Assembly (NCBI RefSeq): GCF_018882085.1
Contig: NZ_JACVPB010000003.1
Span: 186,001-250,000, forward strand
Source: Polynucleobacter sp. AP-Reno-20A-A9
Lineage (GTDB): Bacteria; Pseudomonadota; Gammaproteobacteria; Burkholderiales; Burkholderiaceae
Length of the DNA: 64,000 nucleotides
Direction of reading: 5' to 3'
Shown here in pieces: positions 23,258 through 53,246 of the stretch. The translations under genes and the position numbers were made by a program. Below the pieces are notes generated by a model. The model searched no databases. It saw only the letters and a program-made list of their open reading frames with translations, and had not been told where the DNA came from. The stretch's first letter is position 1; each line of letters starts with the position of its first letter.

Positions 23258-23710
23258 ATGAGTATCGTCGATAACAAAAAAGCCTTCTTTGATTATTTTA
23301 TCGAGGAACGCTTTGAGGCAGGGCTTGTGTTGGAAGGTTGGGAAGTGAAAGCCATCCGCGCAGGTCGCGTGCACATCAAAGAAGCGTATGTCGTCATTCG
23401 CAAGGCGGAGCTATATTTAATTGGCTGCCATATCACCCCCCTGCTCTCAGCCTCCACCCACATCGTTCCAGACAGTACGCGCACTCGCAAACTCCTTCTG
23501 AATGCGATCGAAATTAAAAAACTCATCGGCAAAGTAGAGCAAAAAGGCTACACCCTGGTGCCGCTTAACCTACACTTCTCCAAAGGCAACGTGAAGTGCG
23601 AGATTGGTCTGGCCAGAGGTAAAAAGCAGCATGACAAGCGCGCAGCCACCAAAGAACGTGAGTGGGAAGTCCAAAAAGGTCGCATTGCCAGAGGCGATTT
23701 AAACGCCTGA
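23258..23710 (+). CDS. smpB: SsrA-binding protein SmpB
   Basis: A 150-residue tmRNA partner for trans-translation and ribosome rescue. Family features include [38 protein letters not shown]-like region [32 protein letters not shown] and the C-terminal basic tail [15 protein letters not shown]. Length is typical. The divergent ratA gene begins 25 nt away. No ssrA gene was recognised in this window. The last codons overlap a small AGGCG/CGCCT hairpin. Confidence 0.97.
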
Positions 23711-23760
23711 CCCCATAAAAACTGGGGTAGACTGGCCTGAGGGCAAATATTTAAGCATTT

Positions 23761-23779
23761 ATGCACTTTAATGGTGCAT
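23761..23779 (+). promoter_or_regulatory. NtrC-like binding palindrome upstream of the ATP-grasp/Anbu operon
   Basis: Arms ATGCAC (23761-23766) and GTGCAT (23774-23779) contain TGCAC-N6-GGTGCA. This is the same pattern and spacing as enteric NtrC sites such as those at glnA (known form TGCAC-N6-GGTGCA). It lies 64 nt before the start I chose for the ATP-grasp gene. I could not find a convincing sigma-54 GG-N10-GC promoter between the site and the gene, so mode of action is open. Confidence 0.5.
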
Positions 23780-23842
23780 TCCAGCACCAAGCCGCTTCAA
23801 ATCGTTCCTTCCAGAATTTATAAAGGCATTAGTTTGGTAACT

Positions 23843-25255
23843 ATGAAATTGCCTTTTGACGAAATGCTCGACGCCGCAGGCAAAGCGCGTCCCCACTACC
23901 AAATCTTTCACAACTGGCTGAAGCAGCAAAGTGACACCCTCATGGGTCTCAAGCGCGCTGAAGCGGACCTAATCTTTAGACGGGTGGGAATCACCTTTGC
24001 CGTCTATGGAGATGACCTGGGGTCAGAAAGAACCATTCCCTTCGATCAAGTGCCGCGCATCTTTACCGCCAAAGAGTGGGAACAACTGGAAGCCGGATTA
24101 CGTCAACGAGTCAAAGCACTCAATCGCTTCATCTATGACGTGTATCACGACGAAGACATCATTAAAGCAGGCATTGTTCCGGCTGAACAGATTTATAACA
24201 ACGCACAATACCGCCCTGAGATGCGCAATGTCAGCATACCGCGCGACATTTATGCGCAAATTGCCGGGATCGACATCGTGCGCGCTGGTGAAGGTGAGTT
24301 CTATGTATTAGAAGATAACCTTCGCGTTCCATCTGGCGTGTCTTATATGGTTGAAGACCGCAAGATGATGATGCGCCTCTTCCCCGATCTCTTTCAGAAA
24401 TATCGCATCGCTCCGGTAGAGCATTACCCCGATCTTTTATTAGAATGTCTCAAGTCCGTGAAGCCCGATGACGTTAAAAAACCAAACGTCGTTGTACTAA
24501 CTCCAGGTATGTATAACTCTGCTTACTTTGAGCACAGCTACCTCGCACAGCAGATGGGTGTTGAGTTAGTGGAAGGCAAAGACTTATTTGTAAAGAATGA
24601 GCAAGTCTTTATGCGCACCACTCAAGGACCTGAGCGCGTTGATGTGATCTATCGTCGCGTTGATGATGACTTCTTGGATCCATTGGCATTCCGCTCTGAC
24701 TCCACTTTAGGTGTTGCGGGGCTCTTATCGGCACACCGCGCTGGTAACGTGACACTGGCAAATGCGATTGGTACCGGTATTGCCGATGACAAATCCATCT
24801 ACCCATATGTACCCGAGATGATCGAGTTTTATCTTGGTGAGAAACCGATTCTCAATAACGTTCCTACTTTCCAGTGCCGCAAGGCGGATGACTTAGCTTA
24901 TACATTAGCTAATCTGGATAAGTTGGTGGTGAAGTTGACCCATGGTGCCGGTGGTTACGGCATGTTAGTTGGTCCAGCTTCAACTAAAGCAGAGATTGAA
25001 GAATTTAGAACTCACCTTATCGCTAATCCAGATAAATATATTGCCCAACCTACTCTGGCGCTATCCACCTGCCCTACCTTTGTTGAGTCAGGCGTTGCAC
25101 CAAGACATATCGACTTAAGACCCTTTGTTCTCTCAGGCAAAACGATCAAGATGGTTCCCGGCGGATTGACTAGGGTTGCACTCAAAGAAGGCTCTTTAGT
25201 AGTGAACTCCTCCCAAGGTGGCGGAACTAAAGATACTTGGGTATTGGAAGAGTAA
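23843..25255 (+). CDS. Circularly permuted ATP-grasp type 2 protein
   Basis: About 470 residues from the ATG at 23843 (MKLPFDEML...). Longer readings from 23771 begin inside the palindromic operator and are unlikely. The family (DUF404/DUF407, CP_ATPgrasp) is recognisable by VYHDEDIIKAGIVPAEQIYNN, RAGEGEFYVLEDNLRVPSGVSYMVEDRKMM, VVVLTPGMYNSAYFEHSYLAQQMG, VIYRRVDDDFLDPLAFR, KLTHGAGGYGMLVGP and RPFVLSGKTI. ATP-grasp enzymes ligate carboxylates to amines or thiols; these are suspected peptide or amide ligases with unknown substrate. It is the first gene of a four-gene operon with alpha-E, transglutaminase-like and proteasome-like proteins. Confidence 0.9.
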   Translation: MKLPFDEMLDAAGKARPHYQIFHNWLKQQSDTLMGLKRAEADLIFRRVGITFAVYGDDLGSERTIPFDQVPRIFTAKEWEQLEAGLRQRVKALNRFIYDVYHDEDIIKAGIVPAEQIYNNAQYRPEMRNVSIPRDIYAQIAGIDIVRAGEGEFYVLEDNLRVPSGVSYMVEDRKMMMRLFPDLFQKYRIAPVEHYPDLLLECLKSVKPDDVKKPNVVVLTPGMYNSAYFEHSYLAQQMGVELVEGKDLFVKNEQVFMRTTQGPERVDVIYRRVDDDFLDPLAFRSDSTLGVAGLLSAHRAGNVTLANAIGTGIADDKSIYPYVPEMIEFYLGEKPILNNVPTFQCRKADDLAYTLANLDKLVVKLTHGAGGYGMLVGPASTKAEIEEFRTHLIANPDKYIAQPTLALSTCPTFVESGVAPRHIDLRPFVLSGKTIKMVPGGLTRVALKEGSLVVNSSQGGGTKDTWVLEE

Positions 25256-25271
25256 GGGAAATAAGAAAAAT

Positions 25272-26249
25272 ATGCTAAGTCGTACCGCTGATTGTCTTTA
25301 TTGGATGGCCCGTTATACCGAGCGCGCAGAGAATACTGCCCGCATGCTGGACGTAAACCATCAAACTTCCCTACTTCCGCAGCCAGCAGAATTTTTAGAG
25401 CAGAGCTGGAAAAAACTACTCACGATTTCTAAACTGGAAGAAGCTTTCCTCAGTAAATATGATGTGGTTAATCGCGAGAATGTTTTGGACTTCATGATTT
25501 ATGAAACCAGTAATCCTTCTAGCATTGTTTCTTGCTTGTTTGCCGCTCGTGAGAATGCCCGCGTTATCCGCGGCAAGATCACTTCCGAAGTTTGGGAAAC
25601 CCAGAACACCACTTGGCTGGAGCTACAGCGCATCCTCGAAGCAAGACATCAGACCGATCCAAGTCGTTTATTGGAGTGGGTGAAGCACCGCTGCCATCTG
25701 TTTAGGGGTGTACTTTATGGAACGATGCTCAAGAATGAATCCTTTGACTTTATCAGCATTGGAACGCTGCTCGAGCGCGCAGATAATACTGCCCGTATTT
25801 TGGAGACCAAATATGAAGATCAGGCGGCTTTGAAGATTCTCGGCGCCAAGAAATCCTCAGATGACGGCACTCATGGTGAATTCTTTGACTTCTATCACTG
25901 GGCAGCCCTGCTTCGGTCAGTCTCCGCATTTGAAATCTATCGTCAAATCTATTCTGACCAAGTTACACCAAAACAAGTTGCACAACTACTGATCTTCAAT
26001 AAACAGATGCCGCGCTCCTTAGTGTGCTGCATCAATGAACTCATTCCCCTTATTTCGGAAGTAAAGAATCAACAATCTAAGGAAATAGAACGTTTACTTG
26101 GCAAACTCAAGGCTAGCCTAGATTATTCAGACATTGATGAGGTTTTTGAACAAGGCCTAGAAGAATTCATTGAGAGTTTCTTGGAGCGCATCAATCATGT
26201 GGCTGATGAGTTCAGTAGCGCCTACCTCATACCACTAGCTGTTGCCTAA
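25272..26249 (+). CDS. Alpha-E domain protein (DUF403)
   Basis: About 325 residues, all helical, starting at MLSRTADCLYWMARYTERAENTARML, the diagnostic N-terminus of the alpha-E family. A second related segment, GTLLERADNTARILETKY, occurs in the middle, and the C-terminus is a long helix pair. The chosen ATG at 25272 lies 16 nt after the ATP-grasp stop. Alpha-E proteins are found next to circularly permuted ATP-grasp and transglutaminase genes and may be a partner or scaffold for the ligase. No catalytic role is established. Confidence 0.9.
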   Translation: MLSRTADCLYWMARYTERAENTARMLDVNHQTSLLPQPAEFLEQSWKKLLTISKLEEAFLSKYDVVNRENVLDFMIYETSNPSSIVSCLFAARENARVIRGKITSEVWETQNTTWLELQRILEARHQTDPSRLLEWVKHRCHLFRGVLYGTMLKNESFDFISIGTLLERADNTARILETKYEDQAALKILGAKKSSDDGTHGEFFDFYHWAALLRSVSAFEIYRQIYSDQVTPKQVAQLLIFNKQMPRSLVCCINELIPLISEVKNQQSKEIERLLGKLKASLDYSDIDEVFEQGLEEFIESFLERINHVADEFSSAYLIPLAVA

Positions 26250-26261
26250 GAAATCAACTAT

Positions 26262-27059
26262 ATGCATCTTAAAATTCGCCATCGCACGGAATATCGCTAC
26301 GAAACCCCGGTGCGTTACTCCATTCAAGAGCTGCGCTTGACACCACCCGCTGTTGTAGGGCAGCAGGTCGATAAGTGGAAGATTAGCACCCCAATTAAAG
26401 CCTCGAATTCAATAGATACATTCGGTAATGTCTGTAGCGTATTCGTCCAAGAGAGTCCTTACACCTCAATGATGATTGAGGCAGAGGGCGAAGTGCATAC
26501 ACAAGATGCATTTGAATTTATTGATGAGGCTAAAGCAGTTTCGCCCTATTATCTTTTACAGCAAACCAACCTGACCGAGCCAACAGAAGAAATGTTGGAA
26601 TATTTTTCTTACAGCCTTCCTAAGAAAAATTCTGTCGATCAAGTGCTTAAACTTGCGGAGGCGGTTCAGGGCTTAATTGTGTACTCCCCAGGACAAACTA
26701 ACTTTGCTACAACAGCCACTCAAGCCTTTGCCATGAAATCTGGCGTATGCCAAGATCATGCGCACATTATGCTCAGCCTCTGTCGCGCCTCACAAATTCC
26801 TGCCCGTTATGTCAGCGGCTATTTCTTTGCGGAAGAATCTCCAAACCTTGCCAGTCATGCCTGGATAGACTTTTGTAGTGATATCGAAAAAGGTATTTGG
26901 ATTAGCGTAGATATCACCCATGCCTGCTTAATCGATTCACGCCATATCCGACTAGCCATTGGTCGCGACTACTACTCAGCGGCTCCCGTAAAGGGAGTGC
27001 GCACCGGTGGCGGTGGCGAAGAACTCAGCGCCAACATCTCCATCCAGCAACTAGAGTAA
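26262..27059 (+). CDS. Transglutaminase-like cysteine protease (bacterial, with N-terminal domain)
   Basis: A 265-residue protein of the BTLCP type. The N-terminal beta domain begins LKIRHRTEYRYETPVRYS, typical for this group. The catalytic triad is visible as Cys in SGVCQDHAHIM, His in SHAWIDF and Asp in SVDITH. Probably a protease or amide hydrolase rather than a cross-linker. It follows the alpha-E gene by 12 nt and precedes the proteasome-like gene by 53 nt. In such clusters it may cut or process the product of the ATP-grasp ligase, an inference. Confidence 0.92.
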   Translation: MHLKIRHRTEYRYETPVRYSIQELRLTPPAVVGQQVDKWKISTPIKASNSIDTFGNVCSVFVQESPYTSMMIEAEGEVHTQDAFEFIDEAKAVSPYYLLQQTNLTEPTEEMLEYFSYSLPKKNSVDQVLKLAEAVQGLIVYSPGQTNFATTATQAFAMKSGVCQDHAHIMLSLCRASQIPARYVSGYFFAEESPNLASHAWIDFCSDIEKGIWISVDITHACLIDSRHIRLAIGRDYYSAAPVKGVRTGGGGEELSANISIQQLE

Positions 27060-27112
27060 GTCAACCTGCCTTTTAAGAGATAATCTCAGGAAATAATGAA
27101 GAGGGTTTAGGT

Positions 27113-27982
27113 ATGACGTATTGCATTGGGCTTTGCCTTAACGATGGTCTTGTGTTTCTATCAGATACGCGCACTAATGCTGGTGTAGACCAAATTGGCA
27201 CATTTAGAAAAATGACCTTGTTTCAAAACAAGGATCGCTTCTTTACATTAATGAGTGCCGGTAATCTCGCTATTACTCAGTCCGTTAAAGAAATTCTGCT
27301 TCAAGGACAGCTTATTAAGGGCAAGAACCTCTGGACAGCTCAAAATTCTTACGAAGCCGTGGTCGTTGTAGGTGATGCAATCAAACAAGTTTATGAACGC
27401 GACCATATAGCCCTTGAAAAAGCTGGGCTCGAATTTAATTGCAATATGATTTTTGGTGGCCAAGTGAAAGGTGAAAAACCTCGCTTATTTAATGTTTACT
27501 CGGCGGGAAACTTTATTGAAGCCACCCCGGAAACCTGTTACTTCCAGATTGGCGAATCCAAATACGGAAAGCCAATCTTGGACCGCGTACTCAATTTCAA
27601 TACGCCACTTAACCTGGCAACCAAGTGCGCCCTCATCTCCATGGACTCCACTCTGAAAAGTAATATTTCTGTTGGGTTGCCTCTGGATATGCTGGTTTAT
27701 GAAAAAAATTCTCTAAAAGCCACTAAGCTAGTTACTCTAGATGATGCAAATCCTTATTTCGCAATGATTCATCAAGCATGGGGCGAGAAGCTGCGCGAGG
27801 CTTTTAACTCTATAGCTGAACCAAGTTGGAGCGGTGCAAATAAATCGCGAGACATCTCTACTCCCGCTAAAAAAATGGGGATTGTTCCCATCAATCATCC
27901 GCCATCTAAAACAAGAGCCTTAAAGGCTGCAAAAACAACTAAGGCTTCTCCCGTAAGGAAGGTGGCCGTAAAGAAAAAGTAA
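27113..27982 (+). CDS. Proteasome-type protease, Anbu/BPH-like, with lysine-rich tail
   Basis: A 289-residue Ntn-hydrolase resembling Anbu, the ancestral beta-subunit. The sequence starts Met-Thr, so removal of Met exposes the catalytic Thr (TYCIGL). SDTRTNAG supplies the conserved Asp (17 counted from the Thr) and TFRKM a Lys near 33. The fold continues through ITQSVKEILLQGQ and MIFGGQVKGEKPRLF. The last 35 residues or so are rich in Lys, Ala and Pro and look disordered and basic, an extension beyond the core. Known Anbu proteins form helical or ring oligomers and are linked to nitrogen stress. It closes the operon and is followed by a strong terminator. Confidence 0.88.
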   Translation: MTYCIGLCLNDGLVFLSDTRTNAGVDQIGTFRKMTLFQNKDRFFTLMSAGNLAITQSVKEILLQGQLIKGKNLWTAQNSYEAVVVVGDAIKQVYERDHIALEKAGLEFNCNMIFGGQVKGEKPRLFNVYSAGNFIEATPETCYFQIGESKYGKPILDRVLNFNTPLNLATKCALISMDSTLKSNISVGLPLDMLVYEKNSLKATKLVTLDDANPYFAMIHQAWGEKLREAFNSIAEPSWSGANKSRDISTPAKKMGIVPINHPPSKTRALKAAKTTKASPVRKVAVKKK

Positions 27983-31460: not shown

Positions 31461-34142
31461 TTACATGCCAATCGTATAAGTCGCCATTACAGTGGTTGTG
31501 GATACTGCTTGGAACGGCTCCTGCCTATAAATACCGGTTACTCCGAGTCGCTGGTTCTTGGCCACATCATAGTAAGCACCCAACATCGCAGTAGGTCTTG
31601 TCTTCACAGGAGTGGCATTGAAGTTTATTGGCGTCAGGCCACTAAATCCAGTGGCTGAGTAAGTGCCATTAGCTGTGTTGGCATCTGTTTCAACACCAAC
31701 GCTACCAAAGGCCCCTGCTTGAGAAACAAACTTATAGGAAGCACCGAGGCCTGCTAATGCAGTCGTAGCATTCGTATTAAGCGCTGAGTAAGTTAGTGGC
31801 GCAGTGACTGTCGCACTAGCGCCTTCGGTATAGCCACCCATATTGTTTTGTGTGTAGCGAATGCCAACGTATGGAGCAACGATTACGTTTTCCACAACCC
31901 CAAAACCATATTTAGCTGTTACTTGTGCGCCTTGGCTATTTAGTTGGGATGAACCAATACCCGGCTCTGAAGTATTAACCACTTGCCTTGAGATGGTAGC
32001 GTTCTTTTGGCCATAAGCTGCAGAGATCTTCACTTCGGTGCCCGTACCATCTACACGTCCATTCCAAACGCCAAACAGACCAATCAACGGAGTGTTGTTG
32101 CCAAGGCTAACTGTTGACCCGGCATTATTTACCGAAAGATTCTGGTCAACATATGCGCCGATGTGATAGTTTTGATGAGGCCGATAGGCTGCAATCAATA
32201 AACCACTCATGTTATTCAGACCATTGGCAGCAGAAACGGCAGTGTTGCGACCGCCCACTGAGATACAGATACTGTTAGCACCAAACTGATTGCAGTCATA
32301 CGAGAAACTATTTGCAAGAACAGAGTTCTGCAAGGCATAAGTGTTCTGCAAGGTGGCTGCCGTATTTATAAGAGACTGCTGAGTATCGATTAAATTTACA
32401 GGTGCAGATAAAACATCCAGATTCCAAATGCCACTAGTAGGGTCTATTTGAGTAAGTACATATGTATAGCCATTTGATGCACCAGTTACCCGAGAACCAA
32501 CAGCATTATTAAGATTGCTTGCCGAGAAGCCCTGAAGAACGCCCGAATAAATATGATTTAACGTTGCATAAGAGCCAGCAGCAATACTAAAAGTGGTTGC
32601 GCCAGACAATCCAGAACCAACCAATTGTCCATAATGGGTTTGGCTAGCTAAGAAGATGCTGTAATTTGTCGGCAATGCGCCGCCATAAGTTAACGCAGTG
32701 GTTACAGGAGAATTGCCGTTGCCCCCCTGGGCGTTAGTGAGGCTAGTAATAATGCCAGCACTTTCGTTATAGATTCCATATCCACCAATACCGCTCGAGA
32801 TTGAGCCCATATTGGTTAACGTGTTGATGGTACCCGTACTAGCATTATAAATTCCATATCCGCCATCGCCACTAGCTATAGTGCCCGTATTAATTAATGT
32901 GGTTATTGAACTACCATTGCCATTATTAATAATCCCATACCCAGCAGTCCCGCTCGTAATGGAGCCTGTATTTATCAAAGAGTTAATGCTGCTGAAGTTC
33001 AGAATTCCAGCGGCAGAATTTATAGTATCGCTATTGCCAACAATGATGGAGCCTGCATTATTCAGCGTATTGATGTCACCTTGATTGCTGATGCCAATTG
33101 AATTTCCCACGCCCGTCACGATTGAGCCTGAATTAGTTAACGTATCCATACTACCGTTATTAATGATTCCATAGCCATTATTGCCAGGCACTATTGAGCC
33201 TGTATTGACTAAGGTTGTAATTGCGCTACCGGTCTCGTTAAAAATACCGGTCGCAGTATCAGGGCCGCTAATTGTGCCCGCATTGGTTAAGGTGGTAATG
33301 GTGCTATTGCCGACGTTATAAATTCCAATCCCGCTGGCCCCACTTGTGATTGAACCAAAGTTATTAATAGCGCCAATAACCCCGCCACTATTTATAATTC
33401 CGTTTGCCCCAGCTATAACACCTGAATTATTGATTACGGATATTTGGCCGTAGTTTGCAATGCCGCTGCCGGTGCTGGAGCTGATGACTCCAGTTTGGTA
33501 ATTAGTAATAGTTCCAATAACAGAATTTAATCCATTAAAGATACCGCTCGATGCCACAAACTCTCCAGGATTTAGAGTCCCACTCATCGTTCCAAAATTA
33601 TTTAAAACATTAATGGCTCCCAAGTTTTCAACACCATAATAAAGGCCGCTAATGGAGCCTCCCTTGCCATTGGATAAAACATTAAACTGCCCCTGAAAGT
33701 TGACAATACCTGCGTTGTCTTTGCCATCATCGATAGTATTGGTAGCGGCTATCGATCCTAAATTCATTAGACCCAAAGATGAACCTGCGTTATTGTAAAA
33801 ACCAGACCAGCTACCATTGATAGCTCCGCTAGCTCCATTAATAAACACATTATTAGAGCCGAGGTTATTTAGGCCAATCGTACTTGCACTAAAGCTGTCA
33901 ATTAACCCTAAATTATTCAATGCCGCATTTGATGCGCTAACGCTAACTGCCGTCTGAGTTACACCAGATACGGTGACGCCATTATTAATCGCTGTGCTAA
34001 CGGCGGCATCAATAGTTAAATCAGAGCAATCAGAGCTAATTACTGCACTATTAGCAATGCAAGTAGCTCCATTTGCGAACACAGGTACGGTTGCGCTTAA
34101 TACTAATACGAGCGGGAATAAATAATTCGATATCTTTTTCAC
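31461..34142 (-). CDS. Autotransporter-like outer-membrane protein with repeat-rich passenger
   Basis: An 893-residue secreted protein with a GTG start at 34142. The signal peptide (KKISNYLFPLVLVLSATVPVFA) is followed by a passenger with many copies of an Asn/Gly/Thr/Ser/Ile-rich unit of about 25-28 residues, of the type GIYN..G.I.TLTN.G.I.SG, predicted to form a beta-helix. From about residue 630 an autotransporter beta-barrel is recognisable (GSRVTGAS..., then YRPHQNYHIGAYVDQNLSV, YGQKNATISRQVV, YTQNNMGGYTEG). The last strand ends VMATYTIGM, with Met at the terminus where Phe or Trp is usual. Nucleotide composition is more A+T-rich than its neighbours. Function could be adhesion, but this is inference. 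Confidence 0.8.
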   Translation of the reverse strand: MKKISNYLFPLVLVLSATVPVFANGATCIANSAVISSDCSDLTIDAAVSTAINNGVTVSGVTQTAVSVSASNAALNNLGLIDSFSASTIGLNNLGSNNVFINGASGAINGSWSGFYNNAGSSLGLMNLGSIAATNTIDDGKDNAGIVNFQGQFNVLSNGKGGSISGLYYGVENLGAINVLNNFGTMSGTLNPGEFVASSGIFNGLNSVIGTITNYQTGVISSSTGSGIANYGQISVINNSGVIAGANGIINSGGVIGAINNFGSITSGASGIGIYNVGNSTITTLTNAGTISGPDTATGIFNETGSAITTLVNTGSIVPGNNGYGIINNGSMDTLTNSGSIVTGVGNSIGISNQGDINTLNNAGSIIVGNSDTINSAAGILNFSSINSLINTGSITSGTAGYGIINNGNGSSITTLINTGTIASGDGGYGIYNASTGTINTLTNMGSISSGIGGYGIYNESAGIITSLTNAQGGNGNSPVTTALTYGGALPTNYSIFLASQTHYGQLVGSGLSGATTFSIAAGSYATLNHIYSGVLQGFSASNLNNAVGSRVTGASNGYTYVLTQIDPTSGIWNLDVLSAPVNLIDTQQSLINTAATLQNTYALQNSVLANSFSYDCNQFGANSICISVGGRNTAVSAANGLNNMSGLLIAAYRPHQNYHIGAYVDQNLSVNNAGSTVSLGNNTPLIGLFGVWNGRVDGTGTEVKISAAYGQKNATISRQVVNTSEPGIGSSQLNSQGAQVTAKYGFGVVENVIVAPYVGIRYTQNNMGGYTEGASATVTAPLTYSALNTNATTALAGLGASYKFVSQAGAFGSVGVETDANTANGTYSATGFSGLTPINFNATPVKTRPTAMLGAYYDVAKNQRLGVTGIYRQEPFQAVSTTTVMATYTIGM
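32725..33780 (-). repeat. Tandem degenerate repeats in the autotransporter passenger
   Basis: About 75-84 nt units encode the passenger motif GIxNxGxIxTLxNxGSIxxG. Recurrent core pieces such as AATAATCCCATA-like stretches are seen many times on the plus strand. Units differ in sequence and slightly in length, as in a beta-helix that has diverged rather than a fresh tandem duplication. Boundaries are approximate. Confidence 0.65.
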
Positions 34143-50648: not shown

Positions 50649-53246
50649 ATGAGTAAGTCGCAGGCAATCGGCACTATTATTGATGCAGCTAGCCTGCGTG
50701 CGGCACGAGAAATTGTTTACGCTGAGTTTCGTAATACACAATCGGTTGGTAAGTTAACCAAGCAACTTTCTAAGCTAAGCGATGAACTACTCTCCCATCT
50801 ATGGAATAGCTGTGGCTTAAATAATGAAGCCACTTTAGTCGCAGTTGGCGGATTCGGTAGAGGTGCACTATTTCCCTACTCTGATATTGATATATTAATT
50901 CTGCTTCCAGCGGATGAAGGTCAAGCCAGAGCCTTATCAAAGCAAGTTGAGCAATTTGTTGCCAGCTGTTGGGATACTGGATTAGAAATTGGTTCCTCAG
51001 TCAGAAATGTTGCAGAATGCATCTCTGAATCTGAGCAAGACATTACCGTGCGCACCTCCCTCTTAGAGGCGAGACTGATTTGCGGTAAAAAACAATTATT
51101 CAAAGATTTCGCCGAAGCGTTCGAATCGGCAATGGATCCAAAAGCCTTCTTTCAGGCCAAACAGGCAGAGCAGATTCAGCGTCACTACAAGTATCAGAAC
51201 ACCCCCTACTCCTTAGAGCCTAATTGCAAAGAGAGTCCTGGGGGTTTACGCGACTTACAGGTCATCTCCTGGGTTAGTAAGGCCGCATTATTGGGCGACA
51301 CCTTCAAGGACCTCAACGAAGCTGGCCTTGTGACACAGCGCGAACTCACTGAGCTCAAACGCAATCAACGTTTTTTGGAAACCCTGCGTGCCAATCTCCA
51401 TTTATTAGCAGGGCGCAGGCAAGATGTTCTTGCATTTGATTTGCAAGCAGCATTAGCAGCATCCATGGGAATTAAAGAGGAATCATCACGTCAAGCTAGC
51501 GAAGCCATCATGCGTCGCTATTACTGGGCAGCTAAAGCAGTGACCCAATTGAATGACGTTCTCTTACAAAATATTGAGGCGCTCCTCTTTCCGCAAGAGT
51601 CCAAGACAATTCTTGCTATTCCCGGAGAAGGAAACGAGTATTTTATTGAACGCCAAGGGGTATTGGATATTACTGACCCACAGCTCTTTCAAAAGCATCC
51701 AGAGCAGATTCTGAGAACCTTCTTGGTATTTGCCCAAACATCAAATGTGAAGAGCCTGTCAGCAACTATTTTTAGAGCTCTATATAACGCTCGCCAAACA
51801 ATGGATAGCAAATGGCGCAAAGACCCCATCAACCGGGCACTCTTTATTGAGATATTGAAGCAGCCTGAGGGCGTAAGTCGTGCCTTCCATCTCATGAATC
51901 GCAGTAGCGTTCTAGGTCGCTACCTCCCAGCCTTCCGTAAAATTGTTGGACAAATGCAACATGATTTATTTCATGTGTATACAGTCGATCAACATATCTT
52001 GATGGTGTTACGTAATGTGCGCCGCTTCATGGTGGTTGAGCATACCCATGAGTTCCCATACTGCAGCAGCCTCATCGCTCATTTTGAAAAACCTTGGTTA
52101 CTTGTCATTGCCGCACTCTTTCATGACATCGCCAAAGGACGTGGCGGAGATCACTCGCAGCTGGGTAGAGCTGACATGCGCAAGTTTGCAAAAGATCATG
52201 GCCTGGATAAAAAAGATACCGAGCTATTGGTATGGTTGGTTGCCGAGCACCTCAATATGAGTCAAACAGCTCAGAAACAAGACATCACAGACCCCGATGT
52301 TGTGAAGGCATTTGCCAAAAAAGTGGGTGATGAGCGTCACCTTACTGCACTCTACTTATTAACCGTAGCAGATGTTCGCGGTACCAGCCCTAAAGTTTGG
52401 AACGCCTGGAAAGGCAAGCTCTTAGAAGATCTGTATCGCGCAACACTCAGGGTATTGGGTGGGGCAAAACCAGATGCCTCCTCAGAATTAGCGCAACACC
52501 AAGAAGAATCTAAAGCCAAGTTACGTCTGTACGGTATCAATGATGAATCTTATGAAGATTTATGGAAGCAGCTAGATGTCGCCTTCTTCTTAAGACAAGA
52601 CTCATCTGACATTGCTTGGCTTACGCGCCATCTATATAACAAAGTTAATGGTGATCAACCGATTGTGAGGGCAAGACTCTCCCCAATTGGCGAAGGCTTA
52701 CAAGTGGCTGTTTACGTTAAAGACCAGGAAGATCTCTTTGCCAGAATCTGTGCTTACTTTGAAAGACATGGCTTCTCCATTTGGGATGCCCGTATTCATA
52801 CGACGCGTCATGGCTATGCGCTAGATACCTTCCAAATCTCCGGCAGCAACTTGGTAGATGAAGGTGGCAGCTATCGCGACCTTATCCAGCTCGTTGAATT
52901 TGAGTTGACCGATGCTTTAACGAATGCGGAGCCACTTCCCAACCCAAGCATGGGCCGTCTTTCCAGACAGTCGCGCACTTTCCCGATTCAACCACGCGTT
53001 CACATGGTGCCAGATGATCGTGGCCGTTATTACACGCTTGCGCTCTCTGCGAGCGACCGCACTGGCTTGCTTTACACAATCTCTAGAGTATTGGCGAAGC
53101 ATCAGGTATCCATTCATACCGCCAGAATTAATACATTGGGTGAAAGAGTGGAAGACGTTCTATTGCTGGATGCAGCAAACCTGGGTAAGAATCCAAAGCT
53201 CCAAATCCAGCTTGAAACAGAACTGCTTGAGGCTTTAGGGGCTTAA
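50649..53246 (+). CDS. glnD: Bifunctional [PII] uridylyltransferase/uridylyl-removing enzyme
   Basis: An 865-residue nitrogen sensor that uridylylates PII when glutamine is low and de-uridylylates it when high. The nucleotidyltransferase motif [19 protein letters not shown] is near residue 60. The HD hydrolase domain ([21 protein letters not shown]) is at about 480-510. Two ACT domains close the protein ([22 protein letters not shown] and [22 protein letters not shown]), where glutamine binds. Length is typical. It lies 4 nt after map, and its stop overlaps that of the convergent Nudix gene by 4 nt. Confidence 0.97.

Follow-up and report, generated by a model that had tools for sequence, protein, structure and literature searches.

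Sequence comparisons point to probable sigma-70-type NtrC control of the Anbu operon in Polynucleobacter, with rpoN undetected in many genomes of the genus

Which signal, and which sigma factor, controls the operon of the proteasome-like protein Anbu in Polynucleobacter? Anbu, its operon partners and a raised Anbu expression under nitrogen limitation have been described before (PMC5666114, PMC6376114). For the present locus, an initial annotation of the window (the whole stretch of 64,000 nucleotides of Polynucleobacter sp. AP-Reno-20A-A9 analysed here) had pointed out an NtrC-type palindrome ahead of the operon and proposed control by the nitrogen cascade, with the lack of a good sigma-54 promoter as the weak point of the proposal and with repression, or activation at a sigma-70 promoter, as alternatives. 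We compared this region with the genomes of its genus and with other genera of the family.

The palindrome, the operon and their conservation

The palindrome at 23761-23779, a site without strand defined by its letters, an inverted-repeat search and a 41-genome tree, is a perfect inverted repeat, ATGCACTTTAATGGTGCAT, with 6-base arms around a 7-base spacer (ATGCAC-N7-GTGCAT). It contains TGCAC-N6-GGTGCA, just as the initial annotation had it, and agrees with the NtrC-site pattern TGCACY-N5-RGTGCA. It had also been called the only strong palindrome between smpB and the operon; this holds for the NtrC-type pattern, for which it is the sole place in the window at up to one mismatch (a second match is the opposite strand of the same place), but a second 6-base inverted repeat, ACCCCA/TGGGGT, lies in the same interval at 23710-23728. 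Shuffled sequences lead one to expect 1.4 matches to TGCAC-N6-GGTGCA at up to one mismatch in the 64-kb window, so the single match, taken alone, is within chance. At the scale of the genome, the exact pattern occurs at two places in 2.18 Mb, here and before glnA, and the reversed control pattern at none; across 61 genomes of the genus, there are 139 exact occurrences of TGCACY-N5-RGTGCA, compared with 13 of the control pattern.

All genes around the site lie on the forward strand. Upstream is smpB (23258-23710; an ORF named in the initial annotation). The first gene of the operon encodes a circularly permuted ATP-grasp protein of 470 aa (23843-25255; PF14403) and is followed by an Alpha-E gene (25272-26249; PF04168 at 328 bits in the ORF 25263-26246, with the start at MLSRTADC set by eye); we take these two families to be those known under the older names DUF404/407 and DUF403, respectively. 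A transglutaminase-like gene (26262-27059; PF08379 and PF01841) and the Anbu gene (27113-27982) complete the operon. The order ATP-grasp, Alpha-E, transglutaminase, Anbu is thus found here for the first three genes by Pfam, and for Anbu by its fourth place, which is its place in the published order (PMC6376114), together with a PF00227 match of 20.1 bits that is below the cut-off of 22.4. For the ATP-grasp gene, a longer ORF would start at 23771, inside the palindrome; we rejected this start, as some relatives have upstream stops, while ATG 23843 is conserved in frame in 41 of 41 genomes and is the likely start. With the gene starting there, the palindrome is intergenic. The best named matches to this protein, at 100% identity, come from Polynucleobacter species. 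The window also holds glnD, as the initial annotation had noted (50649-53246, forward strand; NF002837, 1370 bits), which encodes the PII uridylyltransferase of the signal chain to NtrB-NtrC. Elsewhere in the window, we observed an 893-aa ORF on the reverse strand (31461-34142) with repeated asparagine- and glycine-rich stretches and a C-terminal part that looks, by eye, like an autotransporter barrel.

The gap between smpB and the ATP-grasp gene was compared in the relatives, as the initial annotation had suggested, and the palindrome proved strictly conserved at a fixed place. A match to the ATP-grasp gene was found in 48 of the 61 genus genomes searched, and 41 of these 48 loci carry the palindrome at the equivalent place, 31 exactly, 7 with one mismatch and 3 with two. 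G030 has a weaker palindrome (8 of 10 arm bases), G015 has no site, and the palindrome is missing before the ATP-grasp gene in G005, G006, G029, G056 and G032; these five genomes all have rpoN, and four of them an NtrC with the GAFTGA loop (the NtrC of G056 was not read). In a tree of 41 of the 48 loci (leaving out these five sigma-54-retaining genomes, G015 for want of a site and G025 for too short a stretch), the arms changed 0.8 times per base, compared with 9.7 for the 7-base spacer, 12.6 for the 40 bases upstream and 10.8 for third codon positions, and 7 of the 10 arm positions (CAC and GTGC) did not change at all. The distance from site to ATG is 78-82 bp over the 41 genomes and exactly 81 bp in 23 of them, including our own genome. 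In a second set of named and metagenome-assembled genomes, whose species partly overlap with the first, GCAC-N7-GTGC is intact in 64 of 68. Judged by this conservation, the palindrome is a functional site. A second, weaker NtrC-like block, AGCACCAAGCCGCTTCA (23783-23799, forward strand), is marked by conserved columns in the same tree: it begins 21 bp, or about two helical turns, past the main site, its left half GCACC is conserved and its right half is weak, and columns 23784-23789 changed 2-4 times each, compared with an average of 12.6 for the 40 bases that precede the main site. This block may be a second NtrC site.

The same motif was to be sought upstream of classical nitrogen genes, and it is present there. 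It occurs, with up to two mismatches, within 400 bp before glnA in all 52 genomes read (exactly in our own), and before amtB in 7 of 7 genomes examined, with one mismatch in our own; since six of these seven were chosen for carrying the motif, the amtB count is not a frequency. It also occurs upstream of a paralogous operon (G000:C2, about 27100-27200; L004, 1440-1535), whose first gene is a transglutaminase/DUF2126 gene and which has an 871-aa ATP-grasp-type ORF about 3.5 kb further on. Among 14 of 15 such loci (the gene start was not found in G029), the upstream GCAC-N7-GTGC is intact in 12 and the site TGCACCCTTGTGGTGAA is kept in 7, which makes GCAC-N7-GTGC the likelier site; by sequence, the paralogous operon is probably a further NtrC target. 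Two more candidates were rejected as targets: a third exact palindrome (C41:10431) lies about 440 bp from the nearest listed gene start, and a site with one mismatch in the vicinity of nitrate genes (C39:134661) falls within an ORF that we take for a porphyrin methyltransferase. Further one-mismatch sites (L003-L009, L011-L015) were judged by ORF position alone.

NtrC, rpoN and the sigma-54 contact loop

A candidate regulator for these sites is encoded in the genome, as the proposal of nitrogen control demands. A match to the NtrC profile TIGR01818 was found in all 61 genus genomes and is above the curated cut-off in 57. In our own genome the match is full-length (649.9 bits against a cut-off of 558.6), the gene order is glnA-ntrB-ntrC, and there are two PII genes. 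The protein has a receiver aspartate motif (LISDIRMP), a Walker A motif (GESGTGKELVA) and a Fis-type HTH, GRNTITRKLQEL, with matches to PF00072 and PF02954, and it is the sole strong Sigma54_activat match of the genome (218 bits; the next is 28). The initial annotation had suggested a search for rpoN along with ntrBC, and here the outcome is split: ntrBC is present, but the TIGR02395 profile search detected no rpoN in our own genome, not even as a first-look candidate. Nor was rpoN found in 38 of the 60 other genus genomes, so that it is present in 22 of 61; the rpoN of Caulobacter crescentus was matched as a control in this search.

The NtrC protein itself is altered where it would contact sigma-54. 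In our own genome the GAFTGA loop has become GAFPGA, and the Walker B motif is not intact (FLGEVGD, D to G). NtrC was read in 57 of the 61 genus genomes, and none of 38 rpoN-less genomes has GAFTGA: the loop reads GAFPGA in 29, AQFGNT in 3, GAFQGA and GAFANA in 2 each, and GAFNGA and GAFLGA in 1 each. In the 19 rpoN-bearing genomes with NtrC read, GAFTGA is present in 8 and altered in 11. Glycine replaces the Walker-B aspartate in 22 of the 57 proteins, our own among them. Outside the genus, all 29 NtrC loci read from other rpoN-bearing genomes of the family have GAFTGA. As a separate observation, the AQFGNT loops (G001, G037 and G049; L121, L122 and L123) are rewritten rather than point-changed and look like a separate path of decay within the genus.

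We considered whether every rpoN-less lineage loses GAFTGA, and this is contradicted by genus g22, in which three of three genomes have no detectable rpoN and an intact GAFTGA (L201, L202 and L203; completeness 97, 88 and 70%). Either rpoN was missed there, or its loss is recent, or NtrC acts differently; loss of the loop is not an invariable sequel. Genus g21 is without rpoN in five of five genomes, with the loops GAFVGA (three), GAFSGA (one) and GSFSAA (one); the serine in GAFSGA may be tolerated.

The rpoN genes that are present differ in place and kind. The rpoN of G005 and that of G041 are flanked by lptB and hpf-ptsN. That of G010, a genome with a broken-loop NtrC, has neighbours read as flhF, flhG, fliA and flgA, among which Pfam supports FlgA and a sigma-70-family protein and the FlhG candidate has no Pfam match; no lpt-hpf neighbour was found in the 3 to 8 kb flanking the rpoN of G018, G003 and G053. 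Compared with the rpoN of G010 and with that of G005, respectively, identity is 55.7% and 47.0% for G053, 46.1% and 55.7% for G003, and 44.2% and 44.9% for G018. The rpoN of G010 is probably a regained sigma-54, separate from nitrogen control, and we infer from these sequences that some species regained rpoN with flagellar genes while their NtrC remained uncoupled. G003 may instead have kept or moved the older rpoN: its gene is nearer to the G005 type, so its loop may have decayed with sigma-54 still present. In G053, whose assembly is 80% complete, an rpoN of the G010 type occurs together with a GAFTGA NtrC. As a side observation, the rpoN of G010 lies in an apparent flagellar cluster (G010:C1:414000-446000; L163, L164), and another NtrC-like activator is encoded at a distance of about 27 kb.

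Promoter geometry and mode of control

With rpoN undetected and NtrC lacking GAFTGA, a sigma-54 promoter is not to be expected before the operon. In line with the initial annotation, which had found no good one, TGGCAC-N5-TTGCW at up to two mismatches is absent from the 300 bp before the ATG in all 43 genomes of the uncoupled group (our own and 42 others). Among the retaining genomes, G032 has an exact TGGCAC-N5-TTGCT 60 bp upstream of the ATP-grasp gene, plus weaker NtrC-like sites; in the other four, where the gene follows closely behind another ORF, no good sigma-54 promoter was found before it. The same division is seen at glnA, which was read in 52 of the 57 genomes (its start was not found in 5). 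Each of the seven GAFTGA-bearing genomes read at glnA has a single NtrC site together with a sigma-54-like promoter of the form GG-N10-GC, TGGCATGCTTYGTGCA, with two mismatches to the consensus; GG-N10-GC is present in none of the other 45, most of which carry a pair of NtrC sites spaced by 51-52 bp. Beyond the genus, the analysis covered 24 loci out of the 51 genomes with a match in other genera of the family, and 14 of these 24 have a sigma-54 promoter (up to one mismatch) upstream of the ATP-grasp gene, with 0.21 expected from shuffles. The promoter is present in 14 of 18 loci whose genome has rpoN and in 0 of 5 whose genome does not, and there is none at L152, the one locus outside this rpoN comparison. 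Of 12 named loci from Paraburkholderia and Caballeronia, 8 combine such a promoter (one mismatch) with NtrC-like sites (one or two mismatches). Control of the operon by NtrC with sigma-54 therefore looks ancestral.

In the uncoupled genomes, a short word at a set distance takes the place in which a promoter would be sought. The word TAGTTT (23830-23835, forward strand), of the form TANNNT, is a candidate sigma-70 -10 element by conservation and spacing; it lies 68 bp past the main site and 47 bp past the second block (68 = 47 + 21). A TANNNT word is found at +66 to +69 of the Anbu-operon site in 42 of 42 genomes (42 of the 48 ATP-grasp loci), compared with 0.76% of positions at offsets 17-63, and is also present at all 67 site-bearing loci of the second set. 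At glnA, it occurs at +47 from the first base of the proximal site in 38 of 40 uncoupled genomes; this count covers 40 of the 52 promoters and leaves out the seven with a GAFTGA NtrC as well as G003, G042, G045, G025 and G049, which have another layout. At amtB, CATAAT is at +47 from the NtrC site in 7 of 7. At the paralogous operon, which was tested once the +47 rule had been fixed, TAGACT is exactly at +47 in all 12 genomes with an intact site. The genomes are related, so these spacing counts are not independent trials, and the paralogous operon is the sole test that postdates the rule. The +68 of the Anbu operon matches the +47 of the other promoters only when it is measured from the weaker second block.

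As a -10 element, TAGTTT would be short, far from the consensus and without a recognisable -35, and a sigma-70 promoter scan found no promoter at the Anbu operon. A more canonical candidate, TTCAAA-N17-TATAAA (23796-23824), was rejected because its TATAAA is not conserved in relatives (columns 23819-23824 changed 5-15 times). At both the Anbu operon and the paralogous operon, the -10-like word ends about 6-7 nt ahead of the ATG, so both mRNAs would be leaderless.

At glnA, the proximal NtrC site has at its 3' border a conserved sequence, GTGCAATAAT, that resembles an extended -10 element. In E. coli, NtrC blocks one glnA promoter and serves another (glnAp1/glnAp2), and by analogy NtrC could do likewise here, with GTGCAATAAT as a candidate element of one of two glnA promoters.

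The following model, from NtrC binding and the sign of its effect to the sigma factor used, the start point and the evolutionary order, is a proposal read from sequence. Under nitrogen shortage, the GlnD-PII-NtrB chain would lead to phosphorylation of NtrC, which very probably binds the palindrome at 23761-23779 and probably also the weaker site 21 bp downstream. From these sites, at about -73 and -52 of the predicted start, NtrC would recruit sigma-70 RNA polymerase to a promoter that consists of the NtrC sites and the -10 word, and thereby induce the ATP-grasp/Alpha-E/transglutaminase/Anbu operon through a housekeeping promoter instead of one for sigma-54. We regard it as likely that NtrC is a sigma-70-type regulator of the Anbu operon, probably an activator, with its targets intact, and have the same good confidence in positive control with sigma-70; that transcription begins at or beside the ATG, giving a leaderless mRNA, has an even chance. 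The conserved site, the presence of ntrC and ntrB and the shared motif before glnA and amtB all support the control by the nitrogen cascade that had been suggested for this operon. Several points speak against our reading: a leaderless start is unusual; the loop is deleted, not substituted, in the sigma-70-type NtrC proteins published so far (PMC10274813); the -10 word is weak and the sigma-70 scan was negative; genus g22 has GAFTGA without a detected rpoN; 11 genomes of the genus pair rpoN with an altered loop; and in P. putida the operon is also induced in an rpoN mutant, with PP_2685 hardly responding in the wild type (PMC7801951).

It is unlikely that NtrC binds here as a repressor and that the operon is off when nitrogen is short. 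An NtrC without GAFTGA is reported to repress some sigma-70 genes in Caulobacter (PMC10274813), and the proximal glnA site abuts AATAAT, a possible promoter blocked by NtrC; but the main site, 78-82 bp before the start codon and upstream of the conserved TANNNT word, is in the usual position of an activator, and such operons are nitrogen-induced in P. putida (PMC7801951) and NtrC-activated in B. cenocepacia (PMC5491218). Distinctly improbable, in our view, is that another dimeric regulator owns GCAC-N7-GTGC and that its likeness to an NtrC site is due to shared ancestry or coincidence. NtrC binding in the Polynucleobacter group is predicted from sequence, which leaves room for such a regulator; against it, the motif precedes the classical NtrC targets glnA-ntrBC and amtB, the end of the HTH (GRNTITRKL) is identical in the six genus NtrC proteins compared (one with GAFTGA, five without), and genomes with a GAFTGA NtrC carry the motif before glnA beside the sigma-54-like promoter. 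There is very little to commend an RNA hairpin (a terminator of smpB or a leader) or a chance inverted repeat, even though the palindrome is just 3' of smpB and a one-mismatch match is not improbable within the window: chance is refuted by conservation, a scan found no terminator at the site, CAC and GTGC are unchanged while the spacer varies freely and so do not show the paired changes of a hairpin, and the distance to the ATG is held while much of the intervening sequence drifts. That NtrC still acts via an overlooked sigma-54 is scarcely credible, for although our genome is in 43 contigs, its completeness is 100% without a candidate, rpoN is also missing from single-contig relatives (e.g. 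G002, G004, G016, G017, G023 and G024), the loop reads GAFPGA, and neither glnA nor the Anbu operon has a sigma-54 site.

Taking NtrC as a sigma-70 activator, the history of the locus might be reconstructed as follows. NtrC control would be ancestral; the lineage would have lost sigma-54, its NtrC the loop that touches sigma-54 (GAFTGA turning into GAFPGA) and partly also the Walker-B aspartate, and the target promoters would have been rebuilt with an NtrC site at a set distance from a -10 element. The most far-reaching form of this proposal, which we hold tentatively and with slightly less than even confidence, is that a whole regulon moved from sigma-54 to sigma-70 with its master regulator and core targets unchanged. 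NtrC would have turned into a sigma-70 activator by substitutions as the ancestral sigma-54 was lost; one layout would recur at glnA, amtB and the two ATP-grasp/transglutaminase operons, namely an NtrC dimer some 52 bp ahead of the start and a -10 but no -35, and both operons would yield leaderless mRNAs; and the species that regained rpoN with flagellar genes would still have an uncoupled NtrC. If this is true, a regulon has outlived the loss of its own sigma factor, and the poorly understood Anbu operon gains a concrete inducing condition in freshwater bacteria, namely nitrogen shortage acting via NtrC. Since genomes from both sides of the change are found within one GTDB genus, the order of sigma loss, loop decay and promoter rebuilding can be reconstructed and tested.

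Comparison with known systems

Enteric glnA has more than one NtrC site upstream, and these sites share the TGCACY-N5-RGTGCA pattern with those described here. They differ in that here there is no -24/-12 promoter, the glnA sites form a pair spaced by 52 bp and the distance to the TANNNT word is fixed. The NtrC of P. putida is canonical, unlike the loop-altered NtrC of our genome. The P. putida operon PP_2685-2688 resembles ours in operon type and is induced under nitrogen limitation, with NtrB/NtrC as the putative regulator (PMC7801951, PMC5666114). In the fold values of that study, for which we took the column order from its sister table, induction of PP_2686-2688 is 11 to 15 fold in wild-type cells and 14 to 20 fold in cells mutated in rpoN; PP_2685 changes about 1.1 fold (1.12) in the wild type and 4.8 fold in a relA/spoT mutant (PMC7801951). 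The persistence of the induction in the rpoN mutant argues against strict sigma-54 dependence in that study. In Burkholderia cenocepacia H111, the genes I35_5080-83 (DUF404/407, DUF403 and two transglutaminase genes) are akin to the operon here; under nitrogen limitation they change by log2 -8.2, -9.4, -9.4 and -6.0 in an ntrC mutant and are listed among the targets common to NtrC and sigma-54 (PMC5491218). They differ from ours in being sigma-54-dependent, and the passages that describe them do not name an Anbu gene (PMC5491218).

Published precedents thus exist both for sigma-70-type NtrC proteins, in alphaproteobacteria, and for operons of this type under NtrC, in Pseudomonas and Burkholderia. 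Among open-licence papers, judged from listings, those that name Polynucleobacter together with NtrC, rpoN or sigma-54, or Anbu together with NtrC, deal with other subjects, and we did not find the combination of a sigma-70-type NtrC with the Anbu operon in print. Altered loops as such were noted in 2011, when about 110 enhancer-binding homologues with a changed GAFTGA, in which the fourth residue is preferentially proline, were reported, including alterations in two organisms without sigma-54 (PMC3162934, the main text of which does not mention Polynucleobacter).

The closest parallels to the proposed mechanism are alphaproteobacterial. The NtrC of Rhodobacter capsulatus is likewise without GAFTGA and is reported to activate via sigma-70, with ATP binding but not hydrolysis being essential (PMC10274813). 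Its loop is deleted, whereas here the loop is substituted (mostly GAFPGA) and the Walker-B aspartate is lost in 22 of 57 proteins, and the lineage is betaproteobacterial, with rpoN undetected in many of its genomes. The NtrC of C. crescentus is also without GAFTGA and is required for glnA expression, for which the data favour sigma-70 promoters; unlike the protein here, it has an eight-residue deletion, and its host retains sigma-54, with TacA acting on sigma-54-dependent genes (PMC10274813). The absence of GAFTGA that marks a sigma-70-type NtrC is thus found in Polynucleobacter as well, where it came about through substitution instead of deletion.
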